A stretch of 64,000 nucleotides of DNA from Tenacibaculum lutimaris (GTDB taxonomy: Bacteria; Bacteroidota; Bacteroidia; Flavobacteriales; Flavobacteriaceae): contig NZ_RAQM01000007.1 in NCBI RefSeq assembly GCF_003610735.1, forward strand, positions 496,001 through 560,000, read 5' to 3'. The notes below the pieces were generated by a model, which had not been told where the DNA came from, searched no databases, and was given only the letters and a program-made list of their open reading frames with translations. Within the stretch, counting starts at the first letter, position 1, and the number at the start of each line of letters is the position of its first letter. A program made the translations under genes and the position numbers. Below are positions 34,152 through 41,721 of the stretch, in pieces.

Positions 34152-35504
34152 ATGAGAATTCATTTTATAGCCATTGGAGGTAGTGCAATGCATAATTTAG
34201 CTATTGCTTTACAACAAAAAGGATACCAAATAACAGGAAGTGATGATACGATTCATGATCCGTCAAAAACCCGTTTAGCAAACAAAGGGTTGTTGCCAGA
34301 AGAGTTTGGATGGTATCCAGAAAAAATCACTACCGACTTAGATGCTATAATTTTAGGAATGCACGCTAAAAAAGACAATCCAGAGCTGTTAAGAGCAGAA
34401 GAATTAGGGTTAAAAATTTATTCGTATCCAGAGTTTTTATATGAACAGTCTAAAGATAAAACACGTGTAGTTATAGGTGGTTCTCACGGAAAAACAACAA
34501 TAACGTCAATGATTTTGCATGTGTTGAATTATCATGATAGAGAAGTAGATTATATGGTAGGGGCACAGTTAGATGGTTTTGACACTATGGTACATTTAAC
34601 TGAAGAGAACGAGTTTATTGTGTTGGAAGGAGATGAGTATTTGAGTTCACCTATAGATATGCGCCCGAAGTTTCATCTGTACAAACCAAATATTGCATTG
34701 TTGAGTGGTATTGCTTGGGATCATATCAATGTATTTCCAACGTTTGAAAATTATGTAGAACAGTTTTCAATTTTTACAGATTCACTTACTAACGGAGGAA
34801 TAATGGTGTATAATGAAGAAGATGCCATTTTAAAAGAAGTAGTTGAAAGCTCAACGCACCCAATAAAAAAATATCCATACAAAACTCCTGATTATTTTAT
34901 AGAAAATGGAATAACCTATTTAGAGACACCAGAAGGAGATTTACCATTGGAAATATTTGGAGAGCATAATTTACAGAATTTAGCAGGAGCAAAATGGATT
35001 TGTCAGCACATGGGAATTGATGAAGACGAGTTTTACGAAGCTATAGCTAGTTTTAAAGGAGCGAGTAAGCGATTAGAAAAGATTGCTGAAAATTTATCAG
35101 CTGTTGTGTTTAAAGATTTCGCACACTCGCCATCTAAAGTTGCAGCAACTACTGCAGCGGTTAAAAATCAATATTTAGATAGAACTTTGTTAGCATGTTT
35201 AGAGTTACATACATATTCTAGTTTAAATGCTGAATTTTTATCGGAATATAAAGGCGCTTTAGATAAGGCAGACAAAGCAGTTGTTTTTTACTCTCCATAT
35301 GCAGTAAAAATTAAACAATTAGAAGAGGTTACAAAAGAGCAAATAGCGAAGGCTTTTGAACGAGATGATTTAATAATCTATACGAATCCACAAGAGTTTA
35401 AAGAGTTTTTATTCAGCCAAGACATAGATAATACAGCCTTGTTGTTAATGAGCTCTGGTAATTATGGTGGATTAGACTTTGAAGAGGTTAAGAGTTTGGT
35501 TTAA
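34152..35504 (+). CDS. mpl: UDP-N-acetylmuramate:L-alanyl-gamma-D-glutamyl-meso-diaminopimelate ligase
   Basis: Peptidoglycan-recycling ligase of 450 residues that joins recovered murein tripeptide to UDP-MurNAc. Mur ligase layout: N-terminal Rossmann part with HFIAIGGSAMHNLA (Mpl/MurC type), ATP P-loop GGSHGKTTITSM near residue 112, central domain with EGDEYLSS, and C-terminal FKDFAHSPSKVAAT. The GGSAM start and overall length fit Mpl rather than MurC. The 3' end overlaps by 17 bases the convergent nucleotidyltransferase gene. Confidence 0.9.
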   Translation: MRIHFIAIGGSAMHNLAIALQQKGYQITGSDDTIHDPSKTRLANKGLLPEEFGWYPEKITTDLDAIILGMHAKKDNPELLRAEELGLKIYSYPEFLYEQSKDKTRVVIGGSHGKTTITSMILHVLNYHDREVDYMVGAQLDGFDTMVHLTEENEFIVLEGDEYLSSPIDMRPKFHLYKPNIALLSGIAWDHINVFPTFENYVEQFSIFTDSLTNGGIMVYNEEDAILKEVVESSTHPIKKYPYKTPDYFIENGITYLETPEGDLPLEIFGEHNLQNLAGAKWICQHMGIDEDEFYEAIASFKGASKRLEKIAENLSAVVFKDFAHSPSKVAATTAAVKNQYLDRTLLACLELHTYSSLNAEFLSEYKGALDKADKAVVFYSPYAVKIKQLEEVTKEQIAKAFERDDLIIYTNPQEFKEFLFSQDIDNTALLLMSSGNYGGLDFEEVKSLV

Positions 35505-36579
35505 AACCTAGTTTTGTTTTTATCCAGTTAATATCTGTTATTTTAGAGGTAACAAACAGAAAGTATGATTTGTTAAATAAAGCTTTGAATAAAATCTGAA
35601 GCCTTGTTGATGTTTTCAAATAGCGTTTTAATGCTACTTTCTTCATTTTGTTATATTGATTTAGAGATAAGTTCTGTAGACAATCAGATACATACTGTTG
35701 GCTTTTTTTATCCGAAGTGTATTCAAGATTTTGAGGTTTTGATAAAAGGTTACAGTATAAATCTAAGCCAGCATTTAGCTCTTTAGAAAGATTGTTGTCA
35801 AATACTTCAGTTTTTACTTTTAATTTATAACCTAATAAAAAGACATCGTAAGTTCCTCGGAGGTTAATGTTTTTTAAAAAGTAAGCGTTATCATTAATCA
35901 ATTTAGAAAACACGGTTAGCTTAATTTGGTTTTCATAAGAGAGAACTGTAATGTTATTAGTTGTAAGGAGAGAATTTTCTACAGTTTCATAATTAAAAAA
36001 TGTAGCTTTTTCCTTTCGTAACATATCCTTATGAATTTCTAAAGCAGCTATTTTATTCGGATGAGTAATTCTGGGTATATGTCTGTGATCTTCAAAAAGC
36101 TCAGAAACCTTATTTGTGTAACCATTTTTTTTTAGGATTTCAAAAGAGGTTTTAACATGTTTTTTCTCTACTAAAAAATCAATATCACCCACCATACGTT
36201 CTGCAATATCTTCGTATAGTCCTTCTAATAAATTACCTGTTCCTTTTAAAAAAACAGGAGTGATGTTGTTTGAGAGTAAAAGCTTGTTGATTTCTTTAGC
36301 TTCTTTTATGATTTGTTGATTACGTTCTCTGTTTAAATCGGTAATATGCTTCATATATTCAACTAAATCAACAGGTAGATAGTGTAATAAATCAGCTCGT
36401 TTTAAATTACAATACAAAGCTGGAAATACATATTGACCTGTACTTACTTTAACTACAGCATCCCAATTAATTAATCCCGATTTAATTGTTTCTTCTATTA
36501 ATTCTTGATGAATTCTTTCATGTGTTATGGTTAAACACCTAGCAATAAATAACAATGTTTCTTTATAATTCATCAGCAA
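35488..36579 (-). CDS. Nucleotidyltransferase family protein (NTP_transf_5)
   Basis: 363-residue protein of nucleotidyltransferase family 5. The signature is in residues ~105-150: TPVFLKGTGNLLEGLYEDIAERMVGDIDFLVEKK, giving the GxG/K-G element and the metal-binding D-x-D pair. The N- and C-terminal parts are helical. Members occur in lasso-peptide and related peptide-tailoring clusters (padeN of paeninodin) and act on unknown substrates. Here it is last in a set of five minus-strand genes and overlaps the kinase-like gene, so the two are translationally linked. Start at 36579 or 36573 (ATG two codons on). Confidence 0.85.
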   Translation of the reverse strand: MLMNYKETLLFIARCLTITHERIHQELIEETIKSGLINWDAVVKVSTGQYVFPALYCNLKRADLLHYLPVDLVEYMKHITDLNRERNQQIIKEAKEINKLLLSNNITPVFLKGTGNLLEGLYEDIAERMVGDIDFLVEKKHVKTSFEILKKNGYTNKVSELFEDHRHIPRITHPNKIAALEIHKDMLRKEKATFFNYETVENSLLTTNNITVLSYENQIKLTVFSKLINDNAYFLKNINLRGTYDVFLLGYKLKVKTEVFDNNLSKELNAGLDLYCNLLSKPQNLEYTSDKKSQQYVSDCLQNLSLNQYNKMKKVALKRYLKTSTRLQILFKALFNKSYFLFVTSKITDINWIKTKLGFKPNS

Positions 36580-37669
36580 ATATTTTTTTTACAGTTGAAA
36601 TCATTTTTTCATTATTTGAATAAGTTAGCTGATAACAAGGCAATTTTTCAAACCAATCTAAAAATAGCTCAGCATTTTGAGGTAATGGAGATAACCAAGA
36701 ATCAGGAATCAACTGCTCGAAAGCTGTAATGCTTGAAATTTTATTAATGATTAAGTCACTGTCTTTTTGATATTTAATGAAAATTAGAGCTTTACAAGGA
36801 AGATTTAGTGAATAATCATAATTGTTTGTAGGTAAGTAGCGAACAATTTTATTTAGCTTTTTAAAATGATATTCAGCAGATGTTTTTAATTCAGGATAGA
36901 TTGGAAGTAGCGTTTCTAAACTATTTTTTTTAATAGATATAGCAGAAGGAAAGCTATGTACATTTAAAGAGTTGTCAACAGGTACAAAATCATCAGCTAA
37001 ACAAGTAAAACCATTGGCTTGTAACAAAGCTAGTGATGTGCTTTTTCCGTTTCCAGAGTCTCCTAAAAATAAAATAGAATTATCATTGTTACTAACTGCT
37101 GAAGCATGAAAAGTACCTATCCATTCTTCTTCATTTTTTTGATGTATTTTCTGTACTAACTCCATTGAAAACTTCCCTTGAAAGTAATGCACTTCTTTTA
37201 AGTTCCAGGTACCAATAAGGGTATTGTCAACAGAAAAAGAAATAGCATTGTCGTTACTATATACTTCAAATAGATGATTGATATTAGTAATATTTTCAAC
37301 TTCTAAATGAGCAAACTTTGGATGTATTAAGAAAGCTTCGGCATCAGAAGCATAGCTTACTTTAAAATATAAACTATTTATGTTATAGTATTTTACTACT
37401 TCAAAAGTCTTAGGCTTAGTTACAGGTATTAGCTTTTTATTGTTTTTATTTTCTGAAGAAATAAGTAAAGCTTCAATATCGGAAACAAGGTAAATTGCTT
37501 GTTGGTAAGGTATGTTAACTTGCTTAGTTATTTGAGAAACAATTTCTTTTTTGCTGATTTTTTTGTTTAAAAGAGATAATGTTTCGGCAACCAAAGGTTC
37601 TACAACAAGATATTCGTTATTGTCTTGAAACCAAATAACTTGTTTATTTTCTAGTTTTTTTATGGTCAT
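36563..37669 (-). CDS. PqqD-like / HPr-kinase-like fusion protein
   Basis: 368-residue protein. Residues ~1-65 (MTIKKLENKQVIWF... LVVEPLVAETLSLLNKKISKKEIVSQI... VSDIEALL) follow the PqqD winged-helix pattern, the fold used as a RiPP leader-recognition element. The C-terminal half has an HPr-kinase-like P-loop, GDSGNGKS at about residues 203-210, followed by FTCLADDFVPVD, the usual acidic HPrK segment. It therefore probably phosphorylates a peptide substrate. The ATG at 37669 is preferred over 37687 because a terminator-like hairpin occupies 37688-37710. Gene order: peptide, this kinase, nucleotidyltransferase. Assignment of the PqqD part is moderate, of the kinase part good. Confidence 0.82.
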   Translation of the reverse strand: MTIKKLENKQVIWFQDNNEYLVVEPLVAETLSLLNKKISKKEIVSQITKQVNIPYQQAIYLVSDIEALLISSENKNNKKLIPVTKPKTFEVVKYYNINSLYFKVSYASDAEAFLIHPKFAHLEVENITNINHLFEVYSNDNAISFSVDNTLIGTWNLKEVHYFQGKFSMELVQKIHQKNEEEWIGTFHASAVSNNDNSILFLGDSGNGKSTSLALLQANGFTCLADDFVPVDNSLNVHSFPSAISIKKNSLETLLPIYPELKTSAEYHFKKLNKIVRYLPTNNYDYSLNLPCKALIFIKYQKDSDLIINKISSITAFEQLIPDSWLSPLPQNAELFLDWFEKLPCYQLTYSNNEKMISTVKKIFADEL

Positions 37670-37687
37670 ATACTTGTCAAAATACAA

Positions 37688-37710
37688 AACCCCGAAAAGT
37701 TTTCGGGGTT
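37688..37710 (-). terminator. Intercistronic hairpin between peptide and kinase genes
   Basis: Inverted repeat AACCCCGAAAA (37688-37698) with TTTTCGGGGTT (37700-37710). On the minus strand it is followed by TTGTATTTTG. It lies 22 bases after the peptide stop codon and just before the kinase start. A partial terminator here would give much peptide message and little kinase. Confidence 0.7.
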
Positions 37711-37731
37711 CTTTTGAATGAAAATATTTTT

Positions 37732-37905
37732 TTAAAACCCACCACCTGGAGCTTCAGGTACGCTTTGTGCCTGAGCCTTTTGTGGGTTTAAGATTATATA
37801 AGTACCTAAAGCTGTTAAAGCTGCATATTTACTGTAGCTGCCTATTTTTTTTAAAGCCTCTTTTCTAGTTATATCTTTATTGTTGTTTTCAGTTTGTTTT
37901 TTCAT
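37732..37905 (-). CDS. 57-residue peptide, candidate tailored/exported precursor
   Basis: Short gene read directly from the sequence: ATG at 37905, stop at 37734-37732. The peptide has a polar N-terminus (MKKQTENNNKD), a Tat-like motif ITRKEALKK at residues 12-20, and a hydrophobic stretch (~27-39, ending TYIILNPQ). A signal-peptidase-like A-Q-A-Q follows at 44-47, then the tail SVPEAPGGGF (48-57). It starts 18 bases after the upstream T9SS protein gene and precedes the PqqD/HPrK fusion, the likely modifier. If cleaved after residue 47 the product is a decapeptide with a single Ser. It may be a leader-core RiPP precursor or simply a tiny secreted peptide; no family was looked up. Confidence 0.75.
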   Translation of the reverse strand: MKKQTENNNKDITRKEALKKIGSYSKYAALTALGTYIILNPQKAQAQSVPEAPGGGF

Positions 37906-37922: not shown

Positions 37923-40900
37923 TTAGTCTAAAATAATTTTAGCAGGAATTTTGCCTAGATCTGAAACTAACTCAACAAGATAAACACCTGAAGCTAGTTT
38001 AGGAATTGAAATTTCAGAGTAACCGTTAGAATTAATAACAGTATCAAAAACTTGCTTACCTGATAAAGAAAATATTTTTAAAGTAGCATTTTTACTTTGA
38101 AGTCCTTTAACTATAATAACTTGGCTGTTTTTAGGTTTAAATAATTCAATACCTTTTGTTTCATTCGGTAAAGTTGGACTTGAACTTTTAGCACTAGTAT
38201 GTAAATAAAATTGACCTGTAGAGTTTGAGTTGTTATTAAGTGTTACGGTATACTCTTTCTCCGACAAGTTGGTAAATGTATTATTCACTTTATCTTCTAA
38301 GTACACATTTAAGTTATCTGGTAAGTTTTTAATATCTGCAGAAAAAGTTATTTCTTTACCGCTTAAAGCTCTTAAACCAACAGGAATTATCATGTTTTCA
38401 TAATCATTATTTGGTAATGTTTGAATAGCTAATTGTTTTCCTTGGTTATTGGTGAGTAACTCAGTAAAAATAGCTAAACCAGAAGTATCTTCTCCAAACA
38501 TTTTCGAATCATAACTTCTATCATAGCCTGTAGTTTTTCCTGAAATATAAAAGACTTGTGTAGATCTTTTTGTGTTACCATTTTCGACAGATAATTCAAT
38601 TGAAGGAATAGGTTCTTGCTTCATGAATGTATCTGAATTTTGATGACTTTGATTAGAGAAAGCAAAGATAAGATTGTTACTTGCTGCAGCTTCCACAAAG
38701 AAAGCTTGACCAGGAGCAATTTCAATTGGGTTAGCTGCGTTTCGGGTAGTGTATTGTGTTCCGTTCCATAACCAAATGGTCTCACTAGTAAGTATAGCTG
38801 TATTCGCAGCTGCAAAATTAGCAGAGTTAATGTAAGATGTATACGGATTCCCTACAAGGTTGTAATTAGTTCTACTACCTGTAGTAATTGCTTTAACAAT
38901 ATTAGAAGTATTAGCTGTTCCACTTATTGAAGCCTCTCCAGGAGTGGCTAACTTAATAGAAACACCTGTTCCATTAGTTATTGTTCCTGTACTACCACTT
39001 TGAGCGTATAACCATGCAGGTCCAGTAATATTACTATAAGGAGCTAACCCTAAATTACCACCACTTCCACTAGCCAAGGTATGGTTAGCAATAATATCCT
39101 CTAAAGTTTCACCAGCAACAGGAGGTGATACCAAGTACCATAATGTAGTTGGTAAACTTCTTTTATAAGTAACAGTACCAGTAACAGTACTTTGTGGTAT
39201 AAATGAAGCACCACTGTTTATGGTTAATGAGTTAAAGGTAACTGCAGAGTAGGCAGTTGGATAATTTGATAAACCAGAAGGAACAACAACATTTGCATTG
39301 GTTGGAGGAACTATATTAAGATCCCAGTTTGAAGCTGTATTCCAATTGTCATCAGTAGACCCTGTCCAAGTAACGGTTCCTATACCAACAAGAACATTGG
39401 TGGTACTACCTACACTGTTTAATGTCAAAACAGCATCGTTAGAAGCGGTATCTTTTAACGTCCCTCCATTTGCAGCTAATGTACCAAGAGCTATACCATC
39501 AGTATCTGAATCACCTGATTGTACTGTGTATCTAAAAACTAAGGCACTAGTTCCGCTTCCGCTTTGGTAAGCTGCTTGACGCGTAGTGGCTCCAATAGTG
39601 ATAGCTATTTGAGGAGTTCCCCCTGTAGTATTTACAGTTATATTCTCATCAAAATTTACAGTAAAGTCCAAGTTTTGACCTGTAAGATAATTACCGTTTA
39701 TAGGAACACTAACACTTGTAACAGTTGGAGAAACAGCATCTACTAAAACAGCGGCTGTAGAACCTATACTATTTAAAGTCAGGTTTGCATCTTTTCCTCC
39801 AGCATCTTTTAAAGTGCTTCCATTGGCAGCTAACGAACCAACAGCAATACCGTCAGTGTCAAGATCTCCTGTAAGAATTGTGTGTCTAAAAACTAAAGAA
39901 CTTGTTCCGCTGCCACTAATATAAGTTGCTTGGCGTGTGGTAGCTCCGATAGTAATAGCTATTTGTGGTATTCCTCCTGTAGTATTAACGGTTACATTTT
40001 CATTAAAGTTAACAGTGAAATCTAAGTTTTGTCCCGTAACATAAGTAGCATTGGCAGGTACACTCACACTAGAAACAGTAGGTGCAACTGCATTTGAAAT
40101 TACAGTTGTAGTGTTGTCCGTATCATCAGTGGTACCATCATTAATAACTACTGTAAAAGTGGTTGTTTCTGAAGTAGCTGTTCTGTTGTCAGTTGGGTTG
40201 AAAGATAAAGCTCTTAGTTTTGACTGTAAATCAGTAGGTGTAGTACTCGCTATAGTATAAGGACCAGAACCAGAAAGCCCTGTACCTGTTAGTATTCCTT
40301 TTGCATCATTATCTAAAGTAATAGTAGCAGATAAATTATCATCATCTGCATCCATGGTTGTAATACTAGAAAAAGGAGCAATAGTGCTATTATCATTTAC
40401 ACTTTGACCAGCACTTGTACCTCCAATTACTGGTGCTGTGTTTATTACAGGTGCAGTAATTGAACTTAATGTTATGTTTTTAAACTCAATATTATCAGAA
40501 TTTGAGGATCCATCTAAGTCGGCAGTAATTATAACTTCAGCAACATTAGCTACTGAATTAGTTTCACCAAAAATTGTTTTAGCGGAGACCTCCGAATCAA
40601 AACTTAAAAGGGCTTGATAGGCAGCTGAAAGAGTCCATGTATCAATAGTATTACCAGAAGAATCTTTAAAGACAATTTGAGTATTAGTTAAAGTTCTCGA
40701 ACCAGTGAACGGTCCCCATAACATATCATCAAAAGTAAATGTTCCTGTATTAACACCATCTCCCTTAATAGTACAGGTAAAACTAGCGGTACTGGAAACA
40801 CCAACTGTTATTATTGGATTGTAAAAAGTCATATTATCAGAAACAATAATATTTGCTCCCGATGGACTTGTTGTTATTGTTTTAAAACCATTACTACTAC

Positions 40901-41003
40901 TACCTAGTGCTGAAAAAGTATAAGTTGTTTGTGCAAAAGAAGAGTTAATTGTAATAGAGTATATAAAAAATAATATATACGAGATAAAATAGCTTTGTTT
41001 CAT
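37923..41003 (-). CDS. T9SS-secreted surface protein with Ig-like repeats
   Basis: 1,026-residue protein with signal peptide (residues 1-24) and a C-terminal type A T9SS sorting domain (~residues 950-1026: LKIFSLSGKQVFD... ISIPKLASGVYLVEL), so it is exported across the outer membrane and attached or released. Two consecutive 118-residue beta repeats occupy about 308-541 (each beginning PTVxSVSVP and containing TGQNLDFTVNF and PQIAITIGATTRQA), an SwmB/Ig-like type. A cadherin-like stretch precedes them. The region after 545 resembles the glycine/aromatic-rich domain found before T9SS tails. Adhesion or peptide display is likely; no enzymatic motif is seen. Confidence 0.9.
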   Translation of the reverse strand: MKQSYFISYILFFIYSITINSSFAQTTYTFSALGSSSNGFKTITTSPSGANIIVSDNMTFYNPIITVGVSSTASFTCTIKGDGVNTGTFTFDDMLWGPFTGSRTLTNTQIVFKDSSGNTIDTWTLSAAYQALLSFDSEVSAKTIFGETNSVANVAEVIITADLDGSSNSDNIEFKNITLSSITAPVINTAPVIGGTSAGQSVNDNSTIAPFSSITTMDADDDNLSATITLDNDAKGILTGTGLSGSGPYTIASTTPTDLQSKLRALSFNPTDNRTATSETTTFTVVINDGTTDDTDNTTTVISNAVAPTVSSVSVPANATYVTGQNLDFTVNFNENVTVNTTGGIPQIAITIGATTRQATYISGSGTSSLVFRHTILTGDLDTDGIAVGSLAANGSTLKDAGGKDANLTLNSIGSTAAVLVDAVSPTVTSVSVPINGNYLTGQNLDFTVNFDENITVNTTGGTPQIAITIGATTRQAAYQSGSGTSALVFRYTVQSGDSDTDGIALGTLAANGGTLKDTASNDAVLTLNSVGSTTNVLVGIGTVTWTGSTDDNWNTASNWDLNIVPPTNANVVVPSGLSNYPTAYSAVTFNSLTINSGASFIPQSTVTGTVTYKRSLPTTLWYLVSPPVAGETLEDIIANHTLASGSGGNLGLAPYSNITGPAWLYAQSGSTGTITNGTGVSIKLATPGEASISGTANTSNIVKAITTGSRTNYNLVGNPYTSYINSANFAAANTAILTSETIWLWNGTQYTTRNAANPIEIAPGQAFFVEAAASNNLIFAFSNQSHQNSDTFMKQEPIPSIELSVENGNTKRSTQVFYISGKTTGYDRSYDSKMFGEDTSGLAIFTELLTNNQGKQLAIQTLPNNDYENMIIPVGLRALSGKEITFSADIKNLPDNLNVYLEDKVNNTFTNLSEKEYTVTLNNNSNSTGQFYLHTSAKSSSPTLPNETKGIELFKPKNSQVIIVKGLQSKNATLKIFSLSGKQVFDTVINSNGYSEISIPKLASGVYLVELVSDLGKIPAKIILD
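39370..40080 (-). repeat. Two 354-base tandem repeats in the T9SS protein gene
   Basis: Direct repeats with a period of 118 codons. The protein copies are about three-quarters identical, with blocks such as LDFTVNFxENxTVNTTGG and IAITIGATTRQA conserved; at the DNA level long stretches match. Confidence 0.85.
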
Positions 41004-41154: not shown

Positions 41155-41721
41155 TTAGTTTCTAGAAGGAAAAATACCAACTAAAGCAATAATGTAATTA
41201 ACAGCCAAATAAGGTTGCAAATTGTTTATTGGTTGATTTCCTCCTGTATTTCCAACAGTAACAGTTACTTCATTTGCAGCCATGTTAGTATTTGGGGCTG
41301 GACTAGTATAGATGTTAGCATCAACTATATTAGATCTATCTATCGGGGCTTTTCCAGTGGCTAAAACATTTCCTGTAGGGTCGTTTGTAGTTCCGTCAGA
41401 GCTTGAAGCTTTAACGGTCCCTGTCGCAGCATGATTATGGCTAGGAATTTGGGTTACATTTAAAATGTTAGTTTGTGCCCCTCCTCTTTGACCTAATCTA
41501 TAATCAGATAAACCAGGTCCCTGTCTAGGACCTATTGGGGCTCTACCTCTTAAATCAGGTAAAGCAAAAGTTGTTCTTCCGTCTCCACCATAAGTGGTTC
41601 CTAAAATTGAAAATAAAGCAGTGTTTTGTGATATTGGTAATAATTGGCCGTCGCATAATGCCCAACCTCTTGGAGCAAAGTTTCCTCCGAACATAACAAT
41701 TTCTCCTATAAATGGATCCAT
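41155..41721 (-). CDS. Phage tail-collar domain protein (microcystin-dependent protein type)
   Basis: 188-residue protein of the MdpB/tail-collar family. The diagnostic start DPFIGEIVMFGGNFAPRGWALCDGQLL is followed by ILGTTYGGDGRTTFALPDLRGRAPIG, then LGQRGGAQTNxLNVTQIPSHNH and the end NNLQPYLAVNYIIALVGIFPSRN. It has no signal peptide. In free-living Bacteroidota these occur away from prophages, often several together with small-peptide clusters. Here no other phage gene is near. It precedes the T9SS, peptide, kinase and nucleotidyltransferase genes on the same strand, which suggests a shared role in a surface or secreted product. Confidence 0.9.
   Translation of the reverse strand: MDPFIGEIVMFGGNFAPRGWALCDGQLLPISQNTALFSILGTTYGGDGRTTFALPDLRGRAPIGPRQGPGLSDYRLGQRGGAQTNILNVTQIPSHNHAATGTVKASSSDGTTNDPTGNVLATGKAPIDRSNIVDANIYTSPAPNTNMAANEVTVTVGNTGGNQPINNLQPYLAVNYIIALVGIFPSRN

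Follow-up and report, generated by a model that had tools for sequence, protein, structure and literature searches.

A conserved leader-core peptide encoded beside type IX secretion cargo and an HprK-type kinase in Tenacibaculum lutimaris and other Flavobacteriaceae

HprK-type kinases phosphorylate a core serine in the lasso peptides paeninodin and pseudomycoidin, and in pseudomycoidin the nucleotidyltransferase-family protein PsmN is required for the hexose on the phosphoserine (PMC9266682). In the linear polyphosphorylated peptides (LPP) of Bacillota, made by the lpp cluster of Paenibacillus alginolyticus, the kinase LppK phosphorylates S3 of a linear core with AQS at its start (AQSNWK), and the NTP transferase LppN is described as showing no activity in the expression system employed (PMC13381572). 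For the type IX secretion system (T9SS), a review lists the acceptors of the PorU reaction as A-LPS, primary amines, amino acids or short peptides (PMC10202324).

Here, we analyzed a 57-residue ORF from a 64,000-nucleotide stretch of the T. lutimaris genome (the window). We found that the ORF is real and conserved and that it belongs to a large family, which makes it more than a chance ORF. The family is apparently undescribed, as a literature search with coverage short of most subscription journals and of all bioRxiv preprints returned no paper on it. The system would link peptide modification of the RiPP type with type IX secretion. No paper in the literature searched mentions this secretion system together with PqqD or HPr kinase, and those that mention it together with RiPPs were genome or secretion surveys as judged by their titles.

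The peptide, its operon and the modifying enzymes

The operon in the window comprises only four genes on the minus strand, in the order T9SS cargo, peptide, kinase and nucleotidyltransferase, with a hairpin between peptide and kinase (Table 1), and is bounded by a convergent gene on the plus strand (34152-35504). The peptide contains the motif ITRKEALKK, a hydrophobic stretch, the residues AQAQ and the C-terminal tail SVPEAPGGGF. An earlier note on this DNA had described the start, the stop and these features, all of which we recovered, together with a spacing of 17-18 bases from the T9SS gene, measured here as 17 nt to its stop, and a hairpin after the ORF. The strand, and the kinase and nucleotidyltransferase genes behind the peptide, were not part of that note. 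The hairpin was located and consists of a 12-bp stem and a 3-nt loop followed by a U-rich stretch. Its folding energy of -16.2 kcal/mol (z -3.3) was equalled by none of 200 shuffles, and from its predicted fold it is terminator-like. Directly upstream of the cargo gene, a phage tail collar domain protein is encoded (PF07484, E 2e-31; 41155-41721, minus strand).

Table 1 Features of the peptide operon, given in positions of the window.
Feature	Position	Strand	Basis
Precursor peptide gene, 57 aa (begins with ATG at 37905; last base of the stop codon at 37732)	37732..37905	-	Homologues, pN/pS
Conserved leader, residues 14-46 (RKEALKK...NPQKAQA)	37768..37866	-	pN/pS 0.118; mean pairwise identity 79.5%
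Core, residues 47-57 (QSVPEAPGGGF)	37735..37767	-	pN/pS 0.38
Ser48 codon, proposed modification site	37762..37764	-	Ser at core position 2 in 185/185 parsed distinct peptides
T9SS cargo, 1026 aa, partner gene	37923..41003	-	TIGR04183 29.8 bits (cut-off 23); PF18962 28.7 bits (cut-off 27)
Peptide-associated cargo module, ~340 aa preceding the sorting domain	38190..39206	-	Cross-genome pairing, profile search
T9SS type A C-terminal sorting domain	37932..38135	-	TIGR04183/PF18962; predicted model matches solved T9SS CTDs
Terminator-like hairpin	37686..37712	-	Folding versus shuffles
PqqD-like/HprK-like kinase, 368 aa from ATG 37669 (listed ORF starts at TTG 37687)	36563..37669	-	TIGR04352 E 8e-13, 48 bits (cut-off 200); AlphaFold; HprK folds Z 12.2
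Probable RRE (PqqD-like) domain of the kinase	37448..37669	-	Predicted structure; weak by sequence
Nucleotidyltransferase NTP_transf_5, 361 aa	35488..36573	-	PF14907 E 7e-35; KG and DxD invariant in 34 aligned members

Homologous loci (L001-L228) yielded 188 distinct peptides, of which 185 could be parsed at the leader end; the other three comprise one with a shifted motif, one truncated and one divergent sequence. The leader ends in AQA in 170, in SQA in seven and in AHA in three of the parsed peptides, and two residues after this motif, at core position 2, a serine is present in all of them. The core is 10 residues long in 113/185 and 8-13 residues long in 169/185, its final residue is phenylalanine in 148/185, and none of the 185 contains a cysteine in the core. 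Within the genus, cores are mostly SPEAPGxGF-like; between genera they are more diverse (for example SPPDPGGNPFD, SEIDPGWE and SDPGGAGEDF). A hypervariable core as in a natural product was not observed inside the genus, and there the tail thus does not look diversified as in a natural product.

In two loci, the core is lengthened by a common RVNSGALEKIIDQQ... tail (L027, peptide at 1498+; L029, peptide at 400+), and another peptide carries a long tail of Pro, Gly and Lys (L126). Degenerate peptide copies were found at L162, L163, L168 and L201. One hit in a 2260-aa open frame (G002:734302) was considered as a fusion of peptide and cargo; it adjoins a masked stretch (L152) and shows no fusion.

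Pooled pN/pS was lowest in the leader, at 0.118, as against 0.38 in the core and 0.78 in the N-terminal tail, calculated from 180 distinct peptides of 40-75 aa in 8,941 non-independent pairs of at least 70% identity. The leader is therefore under strong purifying selection. Its mean identity of 79.5% (125 distinct leaders) compares with 27.2% for 92 N-termini of module-bearing cargo proteins, each taken as the 24 residues that begin with the first Met of its ORF, these starts being putative; the leader is thus not conserved like an ordinary signal peptide. The earlier note had left the choice between a leader-core precursor and a signal peptide with almost no mature protein, and the latter fails to explain this difference. 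A conserved leader, a short and less conserved core, and adjoining enzymes of RiPP type speak for the precursor. The variable tail that the note had named, along with a conserved leader, as a sign of a precursor was seen more between genera, and hypervariability within the genus was not seen.

The AlphaFold model of the kinase has a mean pLDDT of 94.5. In this predicted model, PEPCK is the structural match of residues 79-368 (Z up to 14.4, rmsd 5.3), and the part from residue 182 to 368 matches HprK (1ko7_A, Z 12.2, 2.7 Å over 125 residues). The motifs GxSGxGKS and DD, which we take to be the P-loop and the DD motif, i.e. the catalytic motifs of the HprK fold, are invariant across 48 aligned kinases, and the model points to an HprK catalytic fold that includes both. 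The N-terminal 74 residues are predicted, within the full-length model, to form three strands followed by three helices, presumably the element order of a PqqD domain. PqqD-type families are the commonest, though weak, matches of the 48 kinase N-termini at E <= 0.05 (PF05402 in 10/48, best 4e-5; NF050069 in 22/48, best 1.4e-5; NF033530 in 10/48). For the window kinase, the N-terminus had no Pfam match and reached 18.2 bits with NF050069 (cut-off 110), and a PDB sequence search with this domain gave no significant hit (lasso B1 protein TfuB1 at E 1.1). We consider the N-terminus a probable RRE (PqqD-like) domain, an assignment that is weak by sequence.

Distribution and gene pairing

Homologues of the peptide were found in 31 of 59 whole genomes, including its own, so the complete lack of homologues that the earlier note had named as an argument against a precursor did not occur, and neither did the long folded tail, given the core lengths above. 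The set consisted of 36 genomes of the GTDB genus (Tenacibaculum/Polaribacter), 31 of which carry the peptide in up to 17 copies, and 23 genomes from other families, none of which does. A profile search was positive in 40 of 397 Flavobacteriaceae genomes (25 of 237 genera). Of these 40, 37 belong to other genera, 30 with one peptide and seven with two. In a draw from the phylum, which itself includes Flavobacteriaceae, 5/395 genomes matched, all of them Flavobacteriaceae, and a draw from the order gave 6/196, of which four are Flavobacteriaceae and the other two (G874, G879) are genomes of low completeness from other families. At L252, which belongs to one of these two genomes (66% complete), translations show cargo, peptide and nucleotidyltransferase to be consecutive; transfer or a binning error is a possible source of this occurrence outside the family.

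Peptide and kinase co-occur almost perfectly. Of the 36 genomes of the genus, 28 have both, three have the peptide only (completeness 90, 67 and 57%), two have the kinase only (93 and 75%) and three have neither. The kinase was detected in 30/59 genomes and with a single match in 28 of these; of the other two, G023 has two kinases, and in G032 both matches come from a single frame in pieces. This single-copy count rests on the search of the 59 genomes, in which all candidates were scored, since the search of the 397 Flavobacteriaceae scored at most four candidates per genome. In the latter, the kinase was found in 36 genomes, 35 of which also have the peptide; five genomes have the peptide only (completeness 82-92%), one has the kinase only (82%) and 356 have neither, i.e. 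six are discordant (Fisher p 1e-43, species being counted as independent despite their relatedness). In G019, a kinase (L220:4438-5580) lies without a recognised nucleotidyltransferase in the 8 kb fetched, and the genome gave no peptide match; the locus is perhaps a decaying system.

The cargo module co-occurs with peptide and kinase at the genome level. A profile built from peptide-associated cargo, applied to at most five candidates per genome, matched in 161/397 genomes at a broad cut of E 1e-20 and in 42 at a strong cut of 1e-60, which was set after the gap in E-values had been seen. The strong module is present in 36/36 kinase genomes of the Flavobacteriaceae, including G106, which has module and kinase and no peptide found. 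In four genomes (G124, G179, G392, G410), a strong module was detected and both peptide and kinase were not found, and G017 gave no match for peptide, kinase or module. A wider module superfamily, mostly at E 1e-20 to 1e-40, occurs in genomes without the peptide.

Gene order is conserved as well. Of the 20 loci fetched from other genera, 17 have the complete cassette of module cargo, peptide, kinase and nucleotidyltransferase in one uninterrupted run on the same strand, as judged with models that were built partly from those same loci; 16 of the 17 have this order, and L111 swaps the last two genes. The exceptions are L119 and L123, with cargo and peptide only, and L114, with the peptide alone. 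A gene for a protein of ~200 aa recurs 3' of the nucleotidyltransferase in other genera (L112, L113, L115, L118, L120, L227).

All 80 peptide copies listed for 12 genomes of the 59-genome search were inspected for their upstream gene. Seventy-six lie directly behind a T9SS sorting domain, with a median gap of 25.5 nt (<=60 nt in 69/76), and in 71 of these 76 the module is inside the fetched stretch. The four exceptions are L130 and the truncated L201, which have no T9SS gene upstream, the masked L152 and the remnant L168. In five genomes (G000, G002, G013, G015, G020), a peptide is encoded behind 37 of the 41 module proteins and 37 of 41 peptides lie behind a module, leaving out a weak match of 24% identity in G020 and matches that cover little of the module; the remaining four module proteins have no peptide behind them in the fetched flanks. 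Together with G017, these genomes contain at least 290 sorting-domain hits as compared to 41 module proteins, which indicates that the peptide marks a minority cargo class. Module cargo without a peptide also occurs elsewhere (L224, G103, G214, G318). At L224:1272-4460 in G008, a genome that has peptides elsewhere, the module cargo is followed directly by the kinase. Strict pairing of cargo and peptide is thus not needed, and given the further module cargo in such genomes the peptide may serve cargo in trans. Co-inheritance is no proof of interaction, since physical linkage alone could duplicate the pairs together (Mantel r 0.31).

All 96 aligned module proteins match TIGR04183 at E <= 0.01, i.e. 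they carry a type A sorting domain. The module is predicted with confidence and is mostly beta in a model of 466 residues (mean pLDDT 92.3). We attempted to name the module by its fold, and only the sorting domain in this model clearly matched solved structures. The sole named match touching the module in the window protein is the sub-threshold Ig_NUP210_2nd (19.3 bits, cut-off 27).

Possible function of the peptide and alternative readings

The gene, its conservation, the conserved operon, the co-occurrence of peptide, kinase and module, and the gene pairing are established computationally. We judge it moderately probable that the product of the ORF is a RiPP-like precursor and that the modified peptide made from it acts for one subclass of T9SS cargo. 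Cargo and peptide would be made from one transcript largely ending at the hairpin. The PqqD-like domain of the kinase would bind the conserved leader, and the HprK domain would phosphorylate the core serine; the peptide is probably modified chemically by the neighbouring kinase, and Ser48 is the proposed residue by analogy with the core serine of paeninodin, pseudomycoidin and LPP. The nucleotidyltransferase may then add a nucleotide or a sugar at that serine, the role proposed for PsmN in pseudomycoidin. The leader would act as export signal and be cut after AQA, which would leave a modified peptide of ~10 residues in the envelope. There, it could bind or attach to the module beside the sorting domain and tune secretion or anchoring of the cargo. 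We infer every one of these chemical steps, and likewise the physical partnership of peptide and cargo. The peptide would work like a Ser-modified RiPP precursor, and a role with T9SS cargo is the reading with the best support. That one kinase stands against many peptides, and that the peptides pair with a single cargo class, suggests a joint function of modified peptide and cargo, and ligation is conceivable because PorU is stated to use short peptides as acceptors (PMC10202324). A tentative extension, which we hold to be possible and somewhat doubtful, would make the modified decapeptide a prosthetic or anchoring group specific to this cargo class, namely a (glyco)phospho-peptide bound by the module cargo or ligated to it by PorU; RiPP chemistry would then decorate secreted surface proteins.

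An ordinary Ser-modified RiPP with a signal or antimicrobial function, which would be a Gram-negative analogue of LPP hitchhiking behind T9SS genes and yielding a free peptide, strikes us as rather unlikely. It would account for the enzyme types (a probable RRE, HprK, NTP transferase) and the serine near the core N-terminus, modified in LPP, that are shared with LPP, for the sporadic distribution over genera and for the one or two peptides per genome outside the genus. However, it does not predict the 37/41 pairing with one cargo subclass among so many sorting-domain hits, the module in every kinase genome, or the similar cores that reach 17 in a genome such as G015, where 16 of them have a T9SS cargo gene of their own alongside, and no transporter or peptidase was seen by eye in the window operon. 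Less probable still is a membrane-anchored helper, the uncleaved leader of which would be a transmembrane helix presenting the core to the cargo in the periplasm, with kinase and nucleotidyltransferase acting elsewhere, e.g. on envelope glycans. The leader is hydrophobic, its strong conservation could reflect membrane contact, and the ~200-aa protein encoded after the nucleotidyltransferase has a weak outer-membrane beta-barrel score in one of four copies tested. On the other hand, the cleavage-like site is conserved, peptide and kinase presence match nearly one to one, and a serine that stays invariant while the rest of the core drifts is consistent with its modification.

The Tat-like leader proposed in the earlier note was not supported. 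A twin-arginine signal peptide with a vestigial mature part would be in keeping with the S/T-R-K-x-A-I/L-K motif and a Lys in the c-region, and TatC was found in 9/9 genomes tested; these include the peptide-less G017, so that its presence is not discriminating. In contrast, the pair RR is present in none of the 185 leaders, the arginine being followed by K in 178, N in five and T in one (one peptide is truncated), and by E in L252. This absence of the twin arginine in homologues speaks against a Tat signal peptide, which would also leave the kinase link unexplained, and we assign it very little probability. The least credible reading is a spurious ORF or signal-peptide remnant, to which the very short length and the known degenerate copies would lend themselves; it is refuted by the purifying selection on the leader across 180 distinct homologues.

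Under the preferred reading, a modified peptide serving T9SS cargo, the HprK-PqqD-nucleotidyltransferase cassette of Flavobacteriaceae gains a proposed substrate with Ser48 as its target residue, and a class of proposed partner proteins. It also points to a T9SS cargo module that has no curated model above cut-off in the window protein. If it is true that the peptide is attached to cargo, RiPP enzymes would have a further, new function in the equipping of surface proteins. Overall, our results suggest an undescribed way of equipping secreted proteins.

Comparison with described systems

The peptide is a short encoded precursor with a leader and a core and in this respect RiPP-like. By the cluster features tested, the system is neither LPP nor a lasso peptide. 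Paeninodin and pseudomycoidin share with it an HprK-type kinase, which in those peptides acts on a core serine, and pseudomycoidin also shares a nucleotidyltransferase-family protein (PMC9266682), but the window operon contains neither a macrolactam cyclase (C protein) nor a B2 protease, and the serine would sit at the start of the core rather than at the C terminus. The kinase resembles that of the HPr-rel-A system, as 48/48 kinases match TIGR04352 at E <= 0.01; it differs in that the window protein scores well below the family cut-off (Table 1) and has a PqqD-like part fused to it. The partner cargo has the type A sorting domain of T9SS cargo with PorU-dependent attachment, for which the passages of the review consulted describe no dedicated co-encoded peptide (PMC10202324).

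As in LPP, there are a short linear precursor with a conserved leader, the enzyme types of a probable RRE, an HprK-like kinase and an NTP transferase (compared by type), a serine near the core N-terminus, the modification of which is proposed here, and no macrolactam cyclase in the cluster. In contrast to LPP, kinase and RRE-like domain form one fused protein, and the leader motif YxxPxVLxHQxIxFETxxS is absent from our alignments. The SpI-like peptidase and MsbA-like transporter of the LPP cluster were not seen by eye in the window operon or in the loci listed from other genera. Finally, the peptide described here is encoded in T9SS operons of Bacteroidota rather than in Bacillota, with many peptides per kinase in one genus.
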